NCBI RefSeq assembly: GCF_028858725.1
Contig: NC_084767.1
Span: 3,027,501-3,091,500 of the forward strand
Reading direction: 5' to 3'
Source of the DNA: Colius striatus
Taxonomy: Eukaryota; Chordata; Aves; Coliiformes; Coliidae
DNA length: 64,000 nt
Below the pieces are notes generated by a model. The model did not search any database. It was not told the origin of the DNA and saw nothing but the letters and a program-made list of their open reading frames with translations. This document shows positions 249 through 59,425 of this stretch, piece after piece. The position numbers and the translations under genes were made by a program. Each line of letters opens with the position of its first letter. The first letter of the stretch is position 1.

Positions 249-3200
249 GGCCCTCTACACTTATGAGGATGGCTCCAATGACCTGAAGCTGGCAGCGTCG
301 GGAGGTAAGGCCCTCTGTCCCCACAGCCGGTTCGGCTCTGCCGGCTTTTTTCCCCACACCGTCCTGGTGCCGGCACCCACCTGTCCGTGCCGGTGCCGGC
401 TGGACGTGGGCTGATGGTGCCATGCCAGGCGGAGGTTTGCTGGAGCTCTCGGGCCACTTTGAGATCCAGAAGGTGATGTACGGCTTCTGCAGCGTCAAGG
501 AACCCCAGGCCGTGCTCCCCAAATATGTCCTCGTCAACTGGGTGAGTGGGGAGTGCTGGGGTGAGCTGTGGGCCGTGCTCACTGGGGCCGCAGCATGGGC
601 AGAGGAGTGGCTGGGTGCCAGGGAGGAGCCGTGGTGCTGTCGGGGCTGTGGGTGCCCCACGGTCTCGCTGCCCTGAGGTGGTCAACGGGGTGGGGGTCAC
701 CCTGCCGTCCCTCCCCGGCTCAGCCCCTCCCCGGCTGCCACAGGTGGGCGAGGATGTGCCGGATGCCCGCAAATGCGCCTGCGCCAGCCACGTGGCCAAG
801 ATCGCCGAGTTCTTCCAGGTGGGTGCCGCTGGGGAGGGGGACGATGGCGCCGGGGCACCTGCCCCAGTCCCTGATGGCCGCTTGCTCCCCCTGCCCAGGG
901 GGTGGATGTCATCGTCAACGCCAGCAGCGTGGAGGACATCGACCCAGGGGCCATCGGGCAGCGGTTGTCCAACGGGCTGGCCCGTGTCTCCAGCCCGGTG
1001 CTGCACCGCCTGCGGCTGCGGGAGGACGAGAACACTGAGCCTGTGGTAATGTCCCCGTGGCGGCGACGGCGGTGGGCGCGGGGGGTGTCCCTCCCTGCCC
1101 GGGCTCCGCCGCAGCCCCTCACCCCCTGTGCCGCTTGCTGTTATTGCCCTTTGCTGATCCCAGCCCCTCTGCCCCCCACCCCACCTCTCCTCCGTCCCAG
1201 GGCACCACTTACCAGAAAACCGACGCCACGGTGGAGATGAAGCGGCTCAACCGGGAGCAGTTCTGGGAACAGGCCAAGGTGGGGTGCAGGGAGCGGGCAG
1301 CCAGTAGCCCCTGGGGAGCAGGGCGAGCTGCTGGTGGGCAGCCCCATCCTTCTCCCTCCCCCCTACCAGAAAGAGGAGGAACTGCGTAAGGAAGAGGAGC
1401 GGAAAAAGGCCCTGGACGCGCGGCTGCGGTTCGAGCAGGAGAGGATGGAGCAGGAGCGGCTGGAGCAGGAGGAGCGGGAGCGGCGCTACCGGGAGCGCGA
1501 GGAGCAGATCGAGGAGCACAGGCACGGCAGGGCTGGGGAAACTGTGAGGAGCAGATCGAGGAGCACAGGCACGGCAGGGCTGGGGAAACTGTGAGGAGCA
1601 GATCGAGGAGCACAGGCACGGCAGGGCTGGGGGAACAGTGTGAGGAGCAGATCGAGGAGCACAGGCACGGCAGGGCTGGGGGAACAGTGTGAGGAGCAGA
1701 GAGAGGAGCAGCACAGGCATGGCAGGGCTGGGGGAACAGTGTGAGGAGCAGAGAGAGGAGCACAGGCACGGCAGGGCTGGGGGAACAGTGTGAGGAGCAG
1801 AGAGAGGAGCACAGGCACGGCAGGGCTGGGGGAACAGTGTGAGGAGCAGAGAGAGGAGCACAGGCACGGCAGGGCTGGGGGAACAGTGTGAGGAGCAGAG
1901 AGAGGAGCACAGGCACGGCAGGGCTGGGGGAACAGTGTGAGGAGCAGAGAGAGGAGCACAGGCACGGCAGGGCTGGGGGAACAGTGTGAGGAGCAGAGAG
2001 AGGAGCACAGGCACGGCAGGGCTGGGGGAACAGTGTGAGGAGCAGAGAGAGGAGCACAGGCACGGCAGGGCTGGGGGAACAGTGTGAGGAGCAGAGAGAG
2101 GAGCACAGGCATGGCAGGGCTGGGAGGAACAGTCTGAGGATGGGTGTGAGGAGCAGAGAGAGGAGCACAGGCATGGCAGGGCTGGGGAAACTGTGAGGAG
2201 CAGAGAGAGGAGCACAGGCACGGCAGGGCTGGGGGAACAGTGTGAGGAGCAGATCGAGGAGCACAGGCACGGCAGGGCTGGGGAAACTGTGAGGAGCAGA
2301 TCGAGGAGCACAGGCACGGCAGGGCTGGGGGAACAGTGTGAGGAGCAGATCGAGGAGCACAGGCACGGCAGGGCTGGGGAAACTGTGAGGAGCAGATCGA
2401 GGAGCACAGGCACGGCAGGGCTGGGGGAACAGTGTGAGGAGCAGAGAGAGGAGCACAGGCATGGCAGGGCTGGGGGAAACAGTGTGAGGAGCAGATTGAG
2501 GATGGGATGGGGTTGGGGCAGGAACTGTCAGGAGCCCGTGCCATCCCCTGTGCTGTGCCCTGGCCGCAGGAGGAAGCAGCAGAGCATGGAGGCGGAGGAG
2601 GCCCGGCAGCGCCTGAAGGAGCAGTCCATCTTCGTAAGTGCTGTGCCGGGCACAGGGCCGGGGTTGGAGCCAGAGCTGCTGCCTGGCATCACCCCTGGGA
2701 AGGGGCTTTTCCCAGGCTGGTGCCGGGGGGTGACGCCGTGTCTCTTCCCAGGGGGAGCAGCAAGAGGAGGACGACAGGCAGCAGCTCAGGAAATCCGAGT
2801 CGGAGGTGGAGGTGAGTGTGGCGGCCGTGCCTGGTGGATGTGGTGCCCACAGCTGGACGGGGACACAGCTGGTGTGGGTGAGAGATGGTGCTGCAGCCCC
2901 GTGCCACTGCAGTGGTGGGTCTCAGCCTGCCCCGTCCCCACAGGAGGCTGCTGCCATCATTGCTCAGCGGCCCGACAACCCCCGGGACTTCTTCAAGCAG
3001 CAGGAGCGGGTGGCATCGGGCAGCAGCGACGCCATCTCGCCGGGCAGCCACAGGACAGGTGAGGGGCTGGGCGAGAGCTGGGGGCACTGGGGGTGGGCAC
3101 AGAGAGGCCGGGGGGAGCTGCAGGTTGTGGAGCAGGTGAGTGTGGTGCCGCCGGGGCTCCTGGCAGGTGGTAGTGGGATCTGGGACTGTAACGTGGGATG

Positions 3201-6200
3201 GGAATGTCCCTTCTGCCACCGCTGGCACCGCAGTTGTGGGTACCAGGAGCCCAGGGATGGCAGGGGTTTGTCCTGCTCTGCCATGCCACCATCACCGCCA
3301 CTACCACTGCATCTCACTTGGCCCCTGCAGCTGGGGCAGCTTGGAGGGGCTGGATGCTGGGGTGTAAAGGGGGCGCTCATCGTGCTACTGTCTGGGTGTC
3401 ATCTGCTCAGCTGCCATGGCATTGGGCTGCCAGCCGGGCTGGCAGCATGGTCAGCGTGACAGGACCAGGCAGGGGAAGGAAACTCACCCCACGGGGGCAG
3501 CTGAAAAGGACAGGAGTGAGTGGGGCAGGTGTGGGGCACCCAGCGTGCTTCCAGATGGCAGGGAGTGCCCCATGGGAAGACTGGGGTGCTCCATGACCTG
3601 AAGTCCAGCCCTGGGACGCTCCCTGCAGTTCTAGGGCAAGGGCTGGCTGGCTGGATGGGGACCTCTGGCCGTGGGGCTGTGCTGGGGAGCTGTGCCGTGG
3701 GGCTGTGCTGGGCCAGGGGCACTGTGATGTGTGTTCTTGCTGTGGGGTGATGCCATGGGTCATGCCATGGGCTGTGCCATGCGGCTGCGCTGTGGGGCTG
3801 TGCCTCGAGGCGATGCTGTGGGGCTGTGGCGTGGGGTGTGCTGTGGGCTCTGTGTTGTGGCTGTGCCGTGAGACCGTGCTGTGGGTTGTGCTGTGGGTTG
3901 TGCCGTGGGGCCATACTGTGCCTGAGCAGACACTTGGCTCCATAGACGTGTTCTGGGGCCTCTCTTCCTTCAGGCCACGCAGCACTGCCTCCTGTATTTC
4001 TGTCCTGCTATTTCTCCATGCTCTTGTCCCATCATCCTACCGTCCTTCCATCCCATTATCCTCCCGTCCTTCCGTCCCATTATCCTCCTGTCCTTCCATC
4101 CTGTCCCAGTGCCCTGGCCCCGCCACGGCTGCGCTGAGCAGGGACTGACCCATCTCTGCTCTCTGTCTCTCTCTGTCTGTTTGTCTGTCTTTCTCTTGGC
4201 AGGTCGTCTGCACTGTCCTTTCATAAAGACAGCTGACAGTGGGCCACCTTCTTCCTCCTCCTCCTCCTCCTCCCCCCCGCGGACCCCTTTCCCCTATATC
4301 ACCTGCCACCGCACCCCAAATCTCTCCTCTTTCTTCCCATGTAGGTAGCTGGGAGCCCCTGGGTGTGCAGCTCAGAGGCACAGTCCACTCCAGTCCCATG
4401 GCACAGCGGACCAGCAGCAGAGGCAGCCCCCCTCCCCTGGGCAGCCCGAGGGGGCCAGGCACGGGCTGGGAATGCAGGCAGGGGCTGTACCTGCACCTAC
4501 AGCACTCTGCACACCCCAGTTCTGCACCCCTGGGCTGGGGGAATGTGGCAGGCTGTGCCCCTCGTATGGGGAGGTGGCACTGGGCACGCTGTGGCCCTGG
4601 GACAGACAGGGGCAGGGCAGAGCGGCGCCCAGAGAGACGATGCTCTGTCAGAGCAGGAGCAGACTGTGCCCGTGGGGCTACAGGGCAGGCTCTGCTCATG
4701 GGGCACAGGTGACAGGGCAGGCTGTGCCCATGGGTCTGGCTGTTCCCTGGCCTATGCAGGATTGTGCTCATGGGGCAGCACGGGATGGAAAAGGCTGTGC
4801 CCAGGATTGTGTGGGGCTGTGCAGAAAGGGCCAGATGGTGCCTGTGGCCATGTGGGGCCGTGCCTCCGTGGCGCAGCGGTAGCAGGGCACAGAGTGGTGC
4901 CTGCAGAGACGAGGCTGTGCCAGAACCCAGCTGGGCCACATGTTGCCACACACGGCAGGTACGGGGCTGCCTGTCCCCGTCCCTGGCAGCTGGGGGGGCC
5001 GTGTCTGCGTGGGGCCGGCGGGCATGCCCGCAGGAGGGGCACAGCGGCTGCGGCACCTCTGGGTGCGGCAGGGACAGCGTGGCGGCAGGCAGATGGTGAC
5101 ACGTGCCTGACAGCGATGGTTGGTGTGGGGCAGGAGCAGGGGCAATGCTGGGGTGCTGGTTCCCCCCTCCTGGTACGTTGGCAGCCCCCCGCCACGCCAC
5201 CCCGTCTCCTTGTCTGCAGGCAGCCAGTCGGACGCGTACCGCAAGGCCTCGGCCGCGGGCTGCAGCCCCTGCGAGCCCAGCGCGCCCGCCACGCCGCTGG
5301 CTCAGCCGGCCCCCCGCGCCTCACCCGACGAGACGCCGGCACAGCCCAAAGGTGGGCACGGGGCTGGCGCTGCACCCCCCAGCCTGCACTGCCCCGAGAG
5401 CCTGCACTGCCTGGGCACGTCCCTGCTGCTCCCCACAGCGCAGCCCTTGCTGCAGCCCTGCCACCCTCCCCCGCATTGCTTGCTGCATCCCTGCTGCCCT
5501 GGCTGCGCCCCTCGCTGCACCCCTGGCTGCATCCCTTGCTGCATCCCCGCCGTCTCTGCTGCTCTGCGCCGGTCCATCCCCGCCGTCTCTGTTGCATCCC
5601 CCCCTCCCCCCGGTGCAGTCCCGCCGTCACATCCTCGCTGTCTGCAGTGCATTTTGTACCATGTGCCTCTCTGCTGTCTCTGCTGCACCCCCATTCATCT
5701 CTCCCATCTCCAGCACATCCCGCGCTCCCCACTTGCCTCCCCGTCCTGCAGCATTGCCCCAGGGCAGCCCCCTGTCTCTGCTGCAGCTGCCACCGTGACG
5801 CTGCTCTACCTGTGCCACCCCCCCGGGCCTCCTTGCCAAGCACTGCTGCATCCTCCCTGTGCCACTTCACCCCCAGCACAGCCCCCATGTCTCTCCTGCA
5901 GCCCCACTGTCCCCTTGGCATCCTCAGGTGCATCCCAGCTTTCTTTTACTCCACCCACCACAGCAGAGCCCAGCCACCTCCCACCTTGCCCTCCCACTCT
6001 CCACTCCCCTTGGTTCCCCAGTCCCCTCCCTGCCCAGCCCCTCCTCGCAGCCCCTCCCTGCTGCATCCAGCTCACAGGACCCCCCCACCAGCTGCAGCCC
6101 TGTCCATAATGTCCCTGCTGCATCCAGCTCACAGGACCCCCCACCAGCTGCAGCCCTGTCCATAATGTCCCTTAGCCTCAGACAAGGCAAGGGGTCTGTC

Positions 6201-7781: not shown

Positions 7782-7919
7782 GCGACTCCCACGGGGGCTG
7801 CAGCCTGCTAGGGGTGGGGGGGAGGTGCAGGGAGAGCTTGGGAGGGGAGGGGGCTGCCACCGCCCCGGAGGGAGCCCGGGGATGCCAGCCCGGCAGGAGG
7901 CGAAGCCGAGCCACAAACT

Positions 7920-7925
7920 TTTATT
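7920..7925 (-). terminator. PRR7: PRR7 poly(A) signal
   Basis: Reverse-strand AATAAA about 235 nt beyond the PRR7 stop codon. The expected cleavage site near 7900 leaves only about 100 bp between the PRR7 and DBN1 transcript ends. Confidence 0.85.
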
Positions 7926-8160
7926 CTCAAACTGTAACAAACAAAAAAGTTAAGAAACAGAGCAGAGTCCGGGTCCCCAGCGCCCCCGGCCATGGGGGGG
8001 GCCGGCGGGGGCCTGACGGGGAACCAGCCCCTTCCGCGCCGGCGGCCGTGGCCCACAGCAGAGCGGGCGTCCCCGAGGTGACGCGGGCAACCACAACCAC
8101 CCCCTTTCCCCCCGTCCCCGCTCCGGTGCCGGACGGGCACCCACGGTGAGGTGGCCGCCG

Positions 8161-8986
8161 TTAGACAGCGGTAGTCCTGCCGAAGAGGGGCATGGAGACC
8201 GGGAGGTGCCAGGGGCCAGTTTCGTAGGTGTCCCTGCTGCTGAGCTCCGAGTCCGTCCAGCTGGGAAACATGCGGGGGGAGCATTCTGCCTGCAGGTAGA
8301 GGTCCGGGCAGGCCGGGCCGGGGCTGGCCGAGCGGGGCAGGTGCAGCGCCGAGCCGTACCCGGCGTCCAGGAAAAGGGGTTTGTAGCTGGGGGGCTGCTC
8401 CTGCTTCTCCAGCCGCTCGTGGCTCAGGAAAGGGGCATTGATTTTGCGGTACAGCCCCCGCGTGTCCATCAGCACCTCGCTGTACGGCGGGGGGGGCTCC
8501 GCCATCAGCAGCGCTTCCTCGTAGCACGGTGGCTTCGACAGGTCCGACTCTGCAAGGCCAAGCCCCCCCCCGCGGCCCCCCGCTGCCGTCAGCGCCGCGC
8601 CCCGGCTTCCGTGCCGTGGCCCCCCCTCCGAACCACGGGGGAGGCGGGCGCACTCCGGGGACGCCGAGGGCCCCTCCCTGCTCCTTACCGTGCCGGCAGC
8701 TCCAGGGCCGGGGGGGCGGGATGTGGTGGGGGTGATGGTGGTGGGGCTCGAGGCGGAGGCGGTGGGGGATGGCGATGCCGGGGGGGCTGCCCCCGTAACC
8801 CTCGTAGTGCAGCGGCTCCAGCTCCAGCGCGCGCAGGCTCTGCTCCCGCAGCCGCTCCTCCTGCTGCCGCTTCACCCGCCGCCGCAGGTAGCTGCAGAAG
8901 CAGCACAGCAGCACGATGAGCCCCCAGATGAGCCAGAAGCCCGCGAAGCAGGTGAGGAAGGTGTAGGTGCCCTGGGACATCACCAT
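8161..8986 (-). CDS. PRR7: Proline-rich protein 7, synaptic membrane protein
   Basis: Two coding exons on the minus strand, 8986-8689 and 8549-8161, join to give 228 aa. PRR7 is a small postsynaptic and T-cell transmembrane adaptor. The protein starts [14 protein letters not shown]; a single membrane segment at about residues 10-32 is followed by a cysteine-rich juxtamembrane stretch (LLCCFCSYL), fitting palmitoylation. Next come a basic segment, a His/Pro linker, the PPPPYSEV motif (WW/SH3 type) and a C-terminal TTAV, a class I PDZ ligand. It is shorter than the human protein (about 274 aa), mainly in the His/Pro tract. The start at 8986 was chosen because homologues begin MVMSQGTY; the open frame continues upstream only through GC-rich 5' UTR. 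It is tail to tail with DBN1. Confidence 0.95.
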
Positions 8987-9330
8987 CTTGGCTGCTGGCC
9001 CCAGCGGGGAGGCTCGCGCCTCTCTCCCTGCACTTGGGACGGGGGACGGGATGCTCAGGGCGGCGGCAGGGCCAGGGCGGGACCCGATGCTGTCGGGGGC
9101 ATCTCTCCGGGCCGTGCCCGGTAGTGTCTCCTCCGGCCCGTGGGCACCCGCCGTCAGGGGTCCGTCCTCGCCATGGAGCCGGGGGGGGGGAGCTGGAGCG
9201 GGCCGGTCAGGCCTGGGTGCGCTGGGTGGGCGGCGGGGCGGGGGGGCCGGCGGGGCGGGCGGTGGGGGGCCGGGGCCGGCGGGGTCCGGCTGCCCATCGC
9301 TGGGAGGGGGCCGCCAGGGAGGGGGCCCTG

Positions 9331-12300
9331 CAACGAGACAGACGCGAGCGTGAGCGTGGCGGGAACGCGGCCGCCCCGTTCCCATGGCGACTCGCTCCAC
9401 ATGCGCAGCGGCGCCTGGAGCCGGCAGGGAGCCCCACGCGCGCCCCCGCCGCCGTCGCCCCCACGGCTGCAAATCTGCACACCTCCCACCCCCCCACTTC
9501 CCCTCGGCACCCCAGCACGGCGCTGCCGAGCACCCCGGGCCAGGACACGGATGTCATGGCCCCGCAGCGTTGACGCCATTGAGATCGTGGAGCGTCCGTT
9601 GGCATCCCCCGCTCCTGGCCGCTCAGCGCACCCCAAATGGGCTGCAGAGCCCCGGCAGCTCGGTCCTCTGACGCGGCCCCGCTGTGGGGTGCCCCGAGGA
9701 GATGGAGGGGCAGGTCAGCACGGAGCCGCTGTCTGCCTGCGGCACGTGGCGTGCCCCGGAGCACATGCGCCACGGCCATTGCTGGCCCCGCGGCCAGCGG
9801 GGACACTCTGGGAGGTGGCAGCAGCCTGACACGGCAGCTCGGCGGGGATGGCGACGGGAACCGTCTCCACTGCCAGGTCCCTGCCCTTGGGCAGGGTGAC
9901 AGCTCGGTCCCGTCCAGCCGGCAGCGTGTGCTGGGGTGGCCACGCACACCAGCGAGTGGGGAGCAGCACCCATGGGTGTTCGCAGGCAGGCACGTAAGCA
10001 CCCAGCAGGATTATTATTATCGTGGTGTGGGAGAAAAACGGGCTCTCTGGCAGGGAGGAGGGAGAGTGCCGGAGCGGCAGCAGCCGAGGGCAGAGCGACC
10101 GTGGAGGCACCACTGCTCCCACGTGCCTCCGCTCAGTGAAGGGGTGCCTGGTCACCCCGTGGGGCAGGGTCACGCTGATGGCAAGGGCACCTTGGCAAGG
10201 CCACCAGGCCAGGGCCATGGGTGCCACGGGGGATGGAGCCCAGGTGGAAGAAAAGAGGGATGGGGAGGGAGGGGTGTGCTCAGGCCAGTGGCAGGGGCTG
10301 CCCCGTCGTTCATACAGAAGTAGGGCAGTGGCAGCGCCCGCGTGGGGGGGGTCTCGGGAGAGGGGGACGCGACCCTTTCTGGGCTGTCCCAATCCACCAC
10401 AGCTGCCCGGCAAAAGCCAGCTCGGAGCGAGCAGGGCTCACCGGCCCTGGTTGCAACAGGCTCCCTTCCTGCAGCCTGGGTATCCCCGGGCGGGGGGACG
10501 GGAGAGCCGTGCGGGAAGGGCCGTGGGTCGATCTGCGGGGTAACGGCCCCGGGGTTCGAGACCAAGGAACCGGAGCAGCGCGGGCTGGCGGCCGCTGGGG
10601 ACCGGCTGGGGCGTGCGAGGCGAGCGGGGATGCCGCGGCCGGGGAGGTGAGGACTGGGGGAGGCGCGGGGCCGGGCTGGGGAACACCCACACCCGGTTAG
10701 GAGCAGCCACCGAATCGGGGCTCGGCGGTACCCCGAGGCCGCCCCGCTGACCCCGGCGGCGGCCTGGGCCCCGCTTGCCCGCGTCGCATCCGCGCTCGGT
10801 GCCTCCGGCAGGAAGGGGACATTCCGGCGGGGACCTCCCCACTCCCGGTGCCGGGCGCGGCAGCTCCCCCCTTCCTCCTCTTCCACCTCCTCCTCCTCCT
10901 CTTCCACCGCCCCTACCCTCGGTGCGCGCGCCCGCCGCGGACAGACCGGAGGCGCGCGCCCCGGTACGCGCCGCCGCCCCGTCCCCCAGTCACCGGCAGC
11001 GGCGGCCCCGCGCGCCCCCGCCCCGGCCCCGCCGCCCTCGCGCAACAGGCGGAGGCGCCGCGCCCGCTCCCTCCGCGGCTCCCGTTACCGGCGGCGCACG
11101 TGGCTCAGGCGGCGGGCGGCGGCTCCATGGGGCGGCGGCGGGAGCGAGGGGGGCGGGGAGGGCGGCCCGGTGCGCGCCCGGTGCGCGGCGCCGCCGCCGC
11201 CTCCCGGCGCTGCCTTTGTCTCCGGTGAGCGCTCCCGCGCCGCCGCCGCGCGCCGCCCCGCCCGGGCTCCCGCCCCGCCGCTCCGCCCCGCCCCCGGCGC
11301 GGGGAGGGACCTGGGGGCCGGCGGGGCCCCCGCACCCCACAGAAGGGGCTACGGGCGCGGGGTGTGTGTGGGGGAACGGGCACTGCCGCGGGAATCGCCC
11401 CCATCCCCCCCCGGCCCAGGAAGAACGGCCGCGGGATGCCGGTGGCGTGAGGGTCGTGGCGTCCGCGGGGGCGGCCGCGGGAACCCCGCGGGGTGGGGGC
11501 CGGGGATCCCCGGGTGACGGCCGTGCCATGCCCCGTGGGGTGGTGCCGCGGGCCGCCTCGTCCGCCGGCCACGCGCTTGCCCTGGGGGTGGCCGTGGGTG
11601 CCGGTCCCCGCCGGGGCTGGCCGCCGGCGCAGAGCCGGTGCCGGGGGGCAGCGCAGCCGCCGACGGGACTGTGGCAGCCCCCGCCACAGCCCGCCCGAGT
11701 GCCGAACGCGGCGAGGGGCAGAGCGGGCACTGGGTGAAAGCCCTGGGGCACCCCGCTCCCTGGGGAGCCGCTCTTGCCCTGGAGCACACCCCTCGCCCGG
11801 CTTGCCCAAGCATTTACCCCCTGAGCTACGGCCCCCCCCCCCGCCATTTGCCGGGGGGGACACGTCACCAGCCGCTCTCTGCTGCGCCCGAGGCTGGCGG
11901 TCACGGCCCCCACTGGAGACCCCCCTCCTCCCCCGGGCTCCTTGTGACTGTGCCCACCCGGGTGCGGAGCACCCCCTCTCCCTCTGCAGCATCCCCGTGC
12001 CGCGGGGCTGTGCCAGGAGCCGCAGGACGGCGGTTGCAGGGCCGAGCTGAGCCAGCCCCGGGGCCCCGGTGCCCGAGGGCGGGTGGCTGACCCGGTGTGG
12101 GCGCCCGGCGGGGAAGCCCGAGGACGTGACCCGCTGCCGCTTCCTCCCCGTGGGCAGAGCGAGGGGCACCCGCATCCACAGCGCATTGTTCTGCCGAGGC
12201 CTGGCCGGAAGGACTTCCTCCATCCCGGCCGGGGGCTGAGCGGGGGAAGCCGGGCAGCGCCAGCCCGCTCCCGCCGCGGCTGGGCTCCGGCAGCCGGCCA

Positions 12301-32863: not shown

Positions 32864-32869
32864 TTTATT
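32864..32869 (-). terminator. ADRA2D: ADRA2D poly(A) signal overlapping its stop codon
   Basis: On the minus strand GAA TAA A gives both the last codon plus stop and the hexamer AATAAA. The 3' UTR would be only about 20 nt. It is the only hexamer near the end of this gene. Confidence 0.7.
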
Positions 32870-34025
32870 CAACCCTACGTTTCCAAAACTGCCTCGAGAT
32901 GCAAACCAGCGCTGCAGCACAGGCTGTGCAGTGGGGCTGGGGGCTGCCAATGGTGAGCGAGGCTGGGGGCCACGTCCCCCATGTCCTGGCAGGGCCTGAG
33001 GTGCAATGTCGGTGCGGGATGGCGAGGAGCCGGCGGAAGGCGGCACGAAAGTCCCGGTTGAAGAGGGTGTAGATGAGGGGGTTGAGACTGCTGTTGCAGT
33101 AGCCAATCCAGAAGAAGAAGTTGAAGAGGGGTTTGGAGACGCGGCAGCCCTCGCCACAGACAGCCCCCAGGCTGTAGGTGAAGAAGAAGGGGAACCAGCA
33201 GAGCACGAAGGCCCCCATCACCACGGCCAGCACGATGGTGAAGCGCCGCTCCCGCGCCCGCACCAGCCGCTGCCGGCACAGGGACACGCTCTGGTGCTGG
33301 CTCCGGTGCCTCCAGCCCGGCACCGCCACCCCCGGCCCCCTCTTGCTGGCCCCCGCGGGACACGGGGACCGGGTGGTGAGGAAGGCCGCAGTCCGCCGGG
33401 CGGTCAGGCGGTAGATGCGGCAGTAGACAGCCACCATGATGAGGCAAGGGGCGAAGAAGGAGGCAGCACAGGAGGCCAACACGTACCAGGTCTCCTGGCT
33501 CAGCTGGCACTCCCGACCCTCCGGCCGGGCCCGCAGGAGTGGTGGCAGTGCCACCAGGGCTGCCGCTGCCCACACCGCCGCGATCATCCCCTTCACCCGC
33601 GCGGGGCTGCGGCGCAGGTTGAGCCGGGCCGCCCGCGTGACGGCCCAGTAGCGGTCGAGGCTGATGGCACAGAGGTGCCCGATGGAGGAGGTGCAGAGCA
33701 AAACGTCCAGCGCCAGGTACAGGCTGCACCACAGGCCGCCAAAGTACCAGTAGCCCATCACCTCGTTGGCCAGCGAGAAGGGTAGGACGAGGACGGCCAC
33801 CAGGATGTCCGCCGAGGCCAGGGACACCAGGAAGAGGTTCTGCGGGGCCCGCAGGACTCGGCTGGTGGAGATGGCCACCACCACCAGCATGTTGCCCAGC
33901 AGCGTGGCCAGCAGGACAGCCAGGGCAGCTAGCAGGATGAATCCTGTGGCCGTGGGCGAGTGTGGGGTGCTGCCAGCGCTGCTGCCGTTACCGGAAGCAT
34001 TGGGGACGGTGCCGGTTGGCTCCAT
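32865..34025 (-). CDS. ADRA2D: Alpha-2-type adrenergic receptor, probably alpha-2D
   Basis: An intronless 386-aa class A receptor, as expected for alpha-2 adrenoceptors, which sense noradrenaline/adrenaline and couple to Gi. Seven membrane segments are clear. Diagnostic alpha-2 features: [11 protein letters not shown] (ligand aspartate of TM3), [10 protein letters not shown]5 [18 protein letters not shown] with the S-C-x-x-S catechol positions, TM6 [13 protein letters not shown]7 [18 protein letters not shown]. The N-terminus has two N-glycosylation sequons (NAS, NGS). The third intracellular loop is only about 60 residues, far shorter than the 130-180 usual in alpha-2A/B/C. The C-tail past helix 8 is about 45 residues longer than usual. 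Subtype D is inferred from its place beside GRK6 and from known loss in mammals; a search against 2A/2B/2C is needed. Confidence 0.85.
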
Positions 34026-34689
34026 GCTGGCCCAGCCCCTCAGGCAGATGAAGCCCCATGGAGCTGCCCCCTGCCACCTGTGCCCCGCTTACCAGCCCTG
34101 CTGAGTCCCCAGGGATGTGTCCCGGCCACCACTGCTCCTGTACTGACCCGGTCTGGCAGCCACGCAGAGGTCGTCGTGGCTCGGTGGTCGCCTGGACTGG
34201 CACATGGGGTGGCAGCAGCGCCAGCAACACCGGAGTGGCGCCCACAGCAGCCCCACTGCTGGCTCTGCTGGTCACAGCCTGGGAAGAGGGCGGGAGGGAG
34301 GGAGGGACGAGCCGATAGCGCTGGCAGGAACCCAAGCATCTGCGGGCAGTGGGAGAAACAGCTATTGCCAACAATTAAAGGGCTCCTGCCAGGGTCACCG
34401 TGTGGAGTGGGTTTCTGCCAGGCAGGTCAGGGTGCCCCGTGGGCCACGGGCACTGCCTGGTCATGCCCAGTCGACAACCCACTGAGCCCCAGGGCACAGC
34501 AGCACCACAGCACCTCGCTGGCTGCCCTGTGCCCTGGGGCTTGCTGGCACGCTGCGGTGGCACAGCCCTGCGGCACAGACCCTGCCAGCACAGCCCCCTG
34601 GCACCAGGCAGGTGGGAGAAGGTGCTGCCCATGACACCTTGTACAAAGTAGGGTTGCAAACCTAGGGTTTAGCTGGCAGCGTTAATCAA

Positions 34690-39729: not shown

Positions 39730-41420
39730 AACCAAGAGCAAAGTCTAAGGAGCCCCGTGCTGCCCCTGGCGCTGCCCCTGGCGCTGCCCCTCACCTCCAC
39801 GCGCTGCTTACCTCCTCCCCAGAAATTCCTGCAGTTAATGGGTAACTCCCCCAGCATCCCACATCAACCACAGCCCCGGGGAGGGATGGGGCACATGCCC
39901 CTGGCTACCGCATCTTCACACGCCCCTCCTCGCCTGCTCCAGGCTCTGCATTGCCCCTGGGCAAGTGGTGGCCACAGGTGAGGTGGGGAGTGAAGCCCTG
40001 GGCAGAGCTGAGAGGTGGTGCTGGAGCATCCTCAGCTTTCCATCACTTGGTCCTTGGGGCTTCATCCTCTGCATGAGAGGAGGAGGAGGAGGAGGAAGGC
40101 TTGGTGCTGGTGCTGCTGTGGTGTCTCAAACTGGACATGAGGCCATGCACACACCCACCACCCTCAGAGCCATCTGAACACCAGCCAGGAGGGACTGGGC
40201 TCTGCCCAGGGTACACACTGCCCTCGCCAGCGGGGTCTTGGCACTGGGTTACACCAGCACGGCCCTTGAGTCCCATCACTGACGGTGATGGTGGCACACG
40301 TCCTGGCTCAGCCAGTGCCAGTGGCTCAGCATGGAACAGCCAGCAGCGCCAGCATGGGCAATGTGGGCAGCACCAGCATGGGCAATGTGGGCAGCACTGG
40401 CGTGTGCAGTGTGGGCAGCACCAGCATGGGCAGTGTGGGCAGCACTGGCATGGGCAGTGTGGGCAGCACCATGAGGGCAGTGTGGGCAGCACCAGCATGG
40501 GCAGTGTGGGCAGCACCATGAGGGCAGTGTGGGCAGCACCAGCATGGGCAGTGTGGGCAGCACTGGCGTGGGCAGTGTGGGCAGCACCTGCGCCTTCCCC
40601 ACACGTGCAGTGCCAAGGTGGGTAGGAGCAGAGCGATGCTAGCATTGCCGTCACCACCTCCTCCACGTTGTTTATCATTACCCGCTGTTTATGCACCTCT
40701 GGCCAAGTTTCCATCCACCCACGAGGTACCCCATCAGCTTGGTCAGCCCAAGGCTGAGCCAGGGGCCAAAGGCCCCTCCAGCCCCGGGGCCCATGGAGAA
40801 CGGGCACAGAGAGTGTTGTGTGGATGCCACATCCCTGTTCCTCTGGCACTGGGCACTCCCAGGACCCATCACCATGGACAAGCCTACTGTGATTGTACTG
40901 GGGGAGTAAGGGGAGCTCAGGGACAGCCTGGGGACATCCCTGAGCACCACTGAGCCTCTGTCAGTGGAGCTGAATGCCTGGCAGGTGCCAGCACAGGGGA
41001 CATGTCCTAGCCCTGCAGGACCTGGGGTGCAGCTGGTGGCACCCGCAGAGCCCTGTGCCAGGCTGCAGTGGGCAGGAGGCCTGTGTCCACACATGCCCTG
41101 AGCCTAGGGGCACTTGGCCAGTGATCCCCACAATCATTAACCCAGTGAGGCCCTGGCAGCTCAGGCTGTCACTCATTGACAGGGTCGGGGCTGAAGTCCT
41201 TGGCCATGTCGGCCCCACAGCTTCCCCAACAGTCAGCAGTGCTGGGAAAACAAGCTCCTGGCACTGGTCCCCACTGCTGGGCAAGGTGGCACCGGCCGAG
41301 GGCTGTCTCCGGCGCTGCCCTGGCCCCGGGGGGTCTGTGGGGCACAGGAGGACAGCACTGCTGGGAAAAGCACTCCTCCTTGGTGGCAGAAGAAGGAGAG
41401 GGATGCATGGTCAGGCAACG
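39730..41420. other. Intergenic, SLC34A1 upstream to RGS14 3' end
   Basis: No gene is supported. It contains a 24-bp minisatellite at 40340-40600, a GAGGAGGAGGAGG run near 40080 and GC-rich unique sequence. Long minus-strand open frames here are repeat translations. Confidence 0.6.
40340..40600. repeat. 24 bp minisatellite
   Basis: About ten units of GGGCAGTGTGGGCAGCACCAGCAT, with CACTGGCGT and a shorter CACCATGAG variant (21 bp). All units are multiples of 3, so every frame stays open over the array, producing false repetitive proteins on both strands. Confidence 0.93.
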
Positions 41421-58779: not shown

Positions 58780-59425
58780 GCACCGTGGAGGTCTCTGGTA
58801 CAGGTCTGGATGGGGTGGGATGAGATGGGGATGGAGTAGCGTAGGATGGGGATGGGATTAGGGGATGGGATGGGGTGGGATGGGATTTGGGGATGGGGTG
58901 GGATGGCAATGGGATGAGATGGGCATGGGATTAGGGGACAGGATGGGATTAGGGGATGGGAATGGGATGAGATGGGGATGGAGTATCATAGGATGGGGAT
59001 GAGATTAGGGGATGGGGTGGGACGGGATGGTATTAGGTGATGGGAATGGGATGAGATGGGGATGGTGTAGCATAGGATGGGGATGGGATGGGGTGGGATG
59101 GTGAGGGGATGGGATGGGATGGGATGGGGTGGGATGGGATGGGATTAGGGGATGGTGAGGGGATGGGATGGGATGAGGGGATGGGATGGGGTTAGGGGAT
59201 GGGAATGGGATGGGATTAGGGGATGGTGAGGGGATGGGATGGGATGGGATGGGATGAGGGGATGGGATGGGGTTAGGGGATGGGAATGGGATGAGATGGG
59301 GATGGAGTAGTGTAGGATGGGGTGGGATTAGGGGATGGTGAGGGGGGGGATGGGATGGGGGGATGGGAAGAGATGGGATGAGGGGATGGGGTGGGATGAG
59401 GGGGTGGGATGAGGGGGTGGGGGCT
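58780..59425. repeat. GGGATGGGAT / GGATTAGGGG minisatellite
   Basis: About 640 bp of short G-rich units (GGGATG, GGATTAGGGGATGG) with a longer higher-order period of AGGATGGGGATGGGATTAGG. One strand is almost free of C, giving many G4-capable runs. It sits directly before the B4GALT7 CpG island. Confidence 0.95.

Follow-up and report, generated by a model that had tools for sequence, protein, structure and literature searches.

A minisatellite carrying the 5′ splice border of a drebrin (DBN1) intron, with a probable GC-AG junction

Among human protein-coding introns, about 0.8% (4351 of 525149; PMC7242645, available excerpt) are of the GC-AG type, and, according to the accessible parts of PMC2490688, conversion of GT to GC donors has been recurrent in mammals, with GC donors usually standing closer to the consensus at their remaining positions. 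On these partial sources, one GC donor in a conserved coding gene is therefore not strange. By analogy, and as far as the available text of the papers goes, the nearest precedents found for the locus described here are a border duplication in potato, the TERT VNTR and camel WAP. The potato report (PMC4974935, in excerpt) describes a tandem duplication over an intron/exon border of an RdRp gene by which splice signals were copied; it was a single duplication at the 3′ border and was accompanied by intron gain. TERT intron 6 carries a VNTR of 38-bp units that alters splicing, with repeats more than 1 kb from the exon borders and RNA:RNA pairing described in the available part of PMC3948165. In the accessible text of PMC6350295, camel WAP, a conserved gene, has a rare GC donor and an insertion of 4 in-frame residues, by which exon 3 is extended upstream, with proof from cDNA and protein.

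The locus compared here with these systems lies in a 64,000-nucleotide stretch of the Colius striatus genome (the window). In common with vertebrate U2-type GC-AG introns, the DBN1 intron has an AG acceptor and a GC donor that follows CAG and carries A at +3 and G at +5; it differs by its non-consensus C at +4 and G at +6, and by a donor present in 20 copies, the first of them at the exon end and the other 19 within the intron. Positions −3 to −1 also agree with the consensus, and the deviations at +4 and +6, which count against the GC reading, set the site apart from GC donors as described in the accessible parts of PMC2490688, which usually are closer to the consensus elsewhere. As in potato RdRp, splice signals have been copied by tandem duplication over an intron/exon border, although here at the 5′ border, about 20 times and with no new intron evident. 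As in TERT, an intronic minisatellite could influence splicing, but the DBN1 unit contains the border itself and the effect is hypothetical. The likeness to camel WAP lies in a conserved gene with a rare GC donor and in extra in-frame residues, which for DBN1 are a possible, predicted product. The unusual feature of the locus is a minisatellite with the splice border itself as its unit. Among the titles and abstract openings listed for open-licence papers, no report stood out on a drebrin repeat or on the chicken drebrin exon structure, nor on a splice border spanned, or a donor multiplied, by a minisatellite or VNTR.

The DBN1 (drebrin) gene was already underway at the window start, and nine of its exons were read. 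When these were joined (exon ends including 818 and 3058), a single open frame of 286 residues with zero stops was obtained. Comparison of 285 of the 286 residues with solved structures gave PDB 5y1z for the ADF-homology domain (E 2.3e-59), the helical part of the same 285-residue query was matched to PDB 9tg8, 'Drebrin' (E 1.4e-84), and Pfam Cofilin_ADF was found in the translation at 3.4e-16. This order of an ADF-homology domain and then the conserved helical region in the predicted protein is the basis of its assignment to DBN1. The seven other complete introns between the exons are all GT-AG and measure 80 to 202 nt. A further exon at about 4203-4342 was translated, and its product resembles what we take to be the neuronal drebrin A insert. 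Downstream of DBN1, a minus-strand frame within 7811-9553 gave a Pfam WBP-1 match below the cut-off; judging from its start it is presumably PRR7, which we take to be the downstream opposite-strand neighbour of DBN1 in human. Gene order, together with composition and the compactness of the introns, probably points to a bird or another sauropsid.

The array was delimited by TRF with a period of 49, 20.3 copies, 93% matches and a score of 1596, the highest among the window arrays listed at a score of 150 or more (Table 1). Its 20 full units stand head to tail and are of 47 nt (five units), 49 nt (twelve), and 50, 52 and 62 nt (one each), within the range of about 10-100 nt that characterises a minisatellite; unit 1 consists of the final 23 nt of the coding exon and 24 nt of intron. 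The border CACAGG is present in 20/20 units, always with C at the second position of the donor, and the donor hexamer is GCACGG in 16 units and GCATGG in four. CACAGGT was sought in the array, with 0 occurrences. GTGAGG was counted 20 times in the array, in agreement with the 'about 20 decoy donors' of the initial annotation, and the decoy donors and purine-rich copies that it had placed next to the exon are present as sequence, where they constitute candidate elements only. An ATC variant, as in the coding exon, is carried by 8/20 units (1-4 and 16-19) and an AGAGAG-type variant by 12/20 (5-15 and 20), and the array holds a run of 342 nt with exact period-49 identity. Units 1 and 2 (1499-1592) have the same sequence and belong to the 47-nt type, in which TGTGAGG is not preceded by the CAG (CAGTGTGAGG register) that improves U1 pairing in 14 other units. 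Whether selection accounts for this type in both of the first two units was considered, but the chance value (5/20 × 4/19 = 0.05) is too weak for such a claim, which was dropped. On the minus strand, open frames of 570, 426 and 400 residues run antisense across the array (1212-2921); they probably result from composition and from units that are stop-free on that strand.

Table 1. Positions of features at the DBN1 border and in the array (window coordinates; a slash marks the exon/intron cut).
Feature	Position	Strand	Evidence
DBN1 coding exon, contains ...EEQIEEH + AG; last 23 nt open repeat unit 1	1370..1521	+	Translation, PDB 9tg8 alignment, upstream acceptor CCCTACCAG
Minisatellite, 20 full units and start of a 21st; full unit = exon tail + intron head	1499..2502	+	TRF, unit split
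GC donor CAG/GCACGG, giving conserved HRRKQQ junction	1522..1523	+	Frame, homology, U1 duplex
First GTGAGG; frame lost on joining to 2570, kept on joining to 2752 with exon 2570-2633 skipped	1544..1549	+	Frame check
Second GTGAGG, ACT/GTGAGG; +69 nt (23 residues), TGA at 1592 removed	1591..1596	+	Frame check, U1 duplex
Probable degenerate 21st copy without CACAG/GC stretch	2486..2535 (end approximate)	+	Local alignment
Intron remainder, possible branch-point A at 2543 (CCAT), acceptor GGCCGCAG	2536..2569	+	Pattern reading
Next DBN1 coding exon, G AGG AAG CAG CAG ... TTC, 64 nt, then GTAAGT	2570..2633	+	Translation, 9tg8 alignment

The exons on either side of the array join in frame, and EEHRRKQQ is read across the junction with no gap there against 9tg8; a gap of three residues in that alignment lies far downstream. 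This ungapped alignment upholds the proposal of the initial annotation that the exon ends CAC AG and continues with G AGG at 2570, so that EEHRRKQQ is encoded, and the genome does read GCACGG rather than GT after CACAG, as had been pointed out. The intron so delimited (1522-2569) is 1048 nt long. With GC at +1/+2 and an ordinary AG at the 3′ end, at a junction fixed by homology, it would be classed from its sequence as a U2-type GC-AG intron. We consider it, with a probability of about 0.7, to be a genuine weak U2-type GC-AG intron of DBN1 that has grown through a minisatellite formed by duplication of the intron's 5′ border. Since, among the donors tested, the conserved drebrin sequence is restored by 1522 only, the spliceosome most likely still picks this first GC, and correct splicing of the gene is probably still possible.

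Donor strength was estimated in bits with a matrix in which +1/+2 were ignored, and by the energy of the duplex with U1. By the matrix, GC 1522 scored 4.4 bits, mid-range relative to the 0.3 to 7.4 bits of the seven GT donors of the gene. By duplex energy, it was the weakest of 11 sites at −4.5 kcal/mol, against −5.3 to −12.7 kcal/mol for the seven GT donors, −4.9 for both 1544 and 1591, and −5.9 for 1640. When a bulged nucleotide was allowed, 14 units (those of 49, 50 and 52 nt) obtained −8.3 kcal/mol with U1, and bulged U1 registers have been linked to alternative donor choice in the available excerpt of PMC9311317. On paper, then, the decoys beat the conserved donor by U1 energy, and this is the chief result against the use of GC 1522.

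All GT (41) and GC (123) from 1380 to 2544 were checked for frame and for stops up to 2570, and the same check covered each of the 41 GT in the intron 1522-2569. Inside the exon, 17 sites (16 GC and one GT) were in frame and stop-free, every one with a negative score. From the exon end onward, three sites were in frame and stop-free to 2570, namely GC 1522, GC 1579 and GT 1591; GC 1579 (AGG/GCTGGG) scored −2.1 bits and is implausible as a working donor. Rejected candidates were the later GC copies (stop in 19/19), GT other than 1591 joined to 2570 (of all 41 GT, 14 keep the frame, and 13 of these 14 carry stops), and read-through or intron retention, which meets the TGA at 1592. That TGA (1592-1594) is the stop by 1594 that had been foreseen for read-through, and every donor past 1594 retains it. 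The first GTGAGG had been placed at 1546 and described as shifting the frame; it starts at 1544, and the shift was found for joining to 2570 and disappears if exon 2570-2633 is skipped.

The chief alternative to the GC-AG intron is donor GT 1591 in unit 2, which was overlooked in the initial annotation and whose cut falls at the very stop codon on which that annotation relied. Use of this site, as the main donor or for a regulated isoform, would make the array a donor supplier and place 23 residues within the helical part of drebrin. No other GT among the 41 of the intron both keeps the frame and avoids stops up to 2570, the U1 pairing of GT 1591 is slightly above that of the GC site, and a GC-AG intron is combined with a cryptic-site insertion at the upstream end of exon 3 in the accessible text on camel WAP (PMC6350295). 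Against it, its exonic −2/−1 are CT instead of the consensus AG, it scores 1.4 bits as opposed to the 4.4 of 1522, its glycine-containing insert would fall in a stretch that is gap-free against solved drebrin, and one in three donors keeps the frame by chance; we regard its use as unlikely.

The finding of GC in 20/20 units and GT in none makes a hidden or polished-away GT at the first border unlikely as well. An assembly or polishing error, by which a true first border with GT or another junction was altered or misplaced in the repeat, might be suspected, as the 342-nt run of exact periodicity is hard to assemble and GC donors are rare (PMC7242645, available excerpt). Such an error is judged improbable: no CACAGGT exists in the array, the flanking exons and the frame are intact, and unit 1 retains the minority ATC, so that simple overwriting by the majority unit did not occur. 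A GT in unit 1 alone would, moreover, require a change from T to C in the founder copy, which was then amplified alone. As to the three options that the initial annotation had left for the border, the GC-AG intron is thus the best supported, a donor supplied by the array is possible (GT 1591, or GT 1544 with exon skipping), and a junction lost in the assembly is less likely because of the lack of a CACAG/GT unit and the ATC kept in unit 1. Its observation is confirmed with small corrections, and its interpretation is partly supported.

For the preferred GC-AG intron, the following history may be proposed. Short GAGGA repeats probably underwent slippage or unequal exchange, so that a minisatellite of 47-49 nt would have formed over the 5′ border, and growth of the array would have lengthened the intron to its present size from an ancestral intron reconstructed at roughly 65-70 nt once the repeat copies are removed. 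Every unit holds a copy of the exon tail, of the GC donor, of the G-rich intron start and of GTGAGG. Because GC stands in all 20 units, the founder unit most likely had GC, which suggests, for an order of events deduced from the copies, that the GC donor is older than the array. The exonic purine-rich sequence and the downstream G runs may assist the weak GC site through a putative enhancer effect, and the remaining donor copies would be mostly passive, although some may leak and give stop-containing RNA or a minor in-frame isoform from 1591.

An old border duplication is in keeping with the probable degenerate 21st copy. The part of this copy beyond the TRF end scored 24 when aligned to the unit, and the seven other introns reached at most 17. 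The same score was matched by 1/1000 shuffles, a control that preserved single bases only, and by 28/2000 random 67-nt pieces of the window, a control that was much less favourable; because 28/2000 real pieces reach the score, the extension to a 21st copy is likely, not certain. The weaker 21st copy concerns the history and not the donor, so the odds of the readings are unchanged by it. If the copy is real, 34 nt only of intron follow it. The stricter yTnAy branch-point pattern gave no match in 2503-2569, a point against the GC-AG reading.

An effect of the array on splicing is plausible as a hypothesis. The stronger proposal that the array is a splicing regulator, in which many donors and purine-rich copies would titrate U1 and SR proteins and copy number would set the ratio of productive to premature-stop drebrin RNA, appears quite unlikely. 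It can draw on the 20 GC copies, the 20 GTGAGG and the 14 units with a strong bulged U1 register, and on the intronic 38-bp repeat reported, in the available part of PMC3948165, to promote TERT exon skipping at at least 9 copies. By eye, however, no polypyrimidine tract for new acceptors was seen within the array. Many intronic repeats, to our knowledge, have no known role, which also counts against regulation by this one. Very unlikely, and put forward as speculation, is the further idea that, in this gene for a synaptic actin-binding protein, the GC-border minisatellite has become a splicing element tunable by its length, whose copy number would balance conserved drebrin, the form with the 23-residue insertion from 1591 and stop-containing RNA, and would vary between individuals or species.

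If the GC donor is used beside 19 identical or near-identical copies, the locus is a natural test of how the first is chosen among many equal donors; if it is unused, the drebrin of this lineage carries an insertion or another junction. Under either outcome, gene prediction limited to GT-AG introns is expected to mis-annotate exon 1370-1521.

An Rfam scan of the window gave 0 matches. A pattern scan of viral contigs with the exon peptide returned 70 stretches that fit the pattern, none of which was confirmed. A single 407-residue frame at 32868-34088 on the minus strand encodes an alpha-2 adrenergic receptor-like GPCR (Pfam 7tm_1 4e-61), with the alpha-2B, alpha-2A and alpha-2C receptors as best PDB matches. 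As a guess, it may be the fourth subtype ADRA2D, which is treated in the available part of PMC6504862. A second large low-complexity array, of the GGATG/GGGATGGGG type, was observed at 58808-59411, and a 24-nt tandem array of 10.3 copies with 86% matches at 40343-40588.
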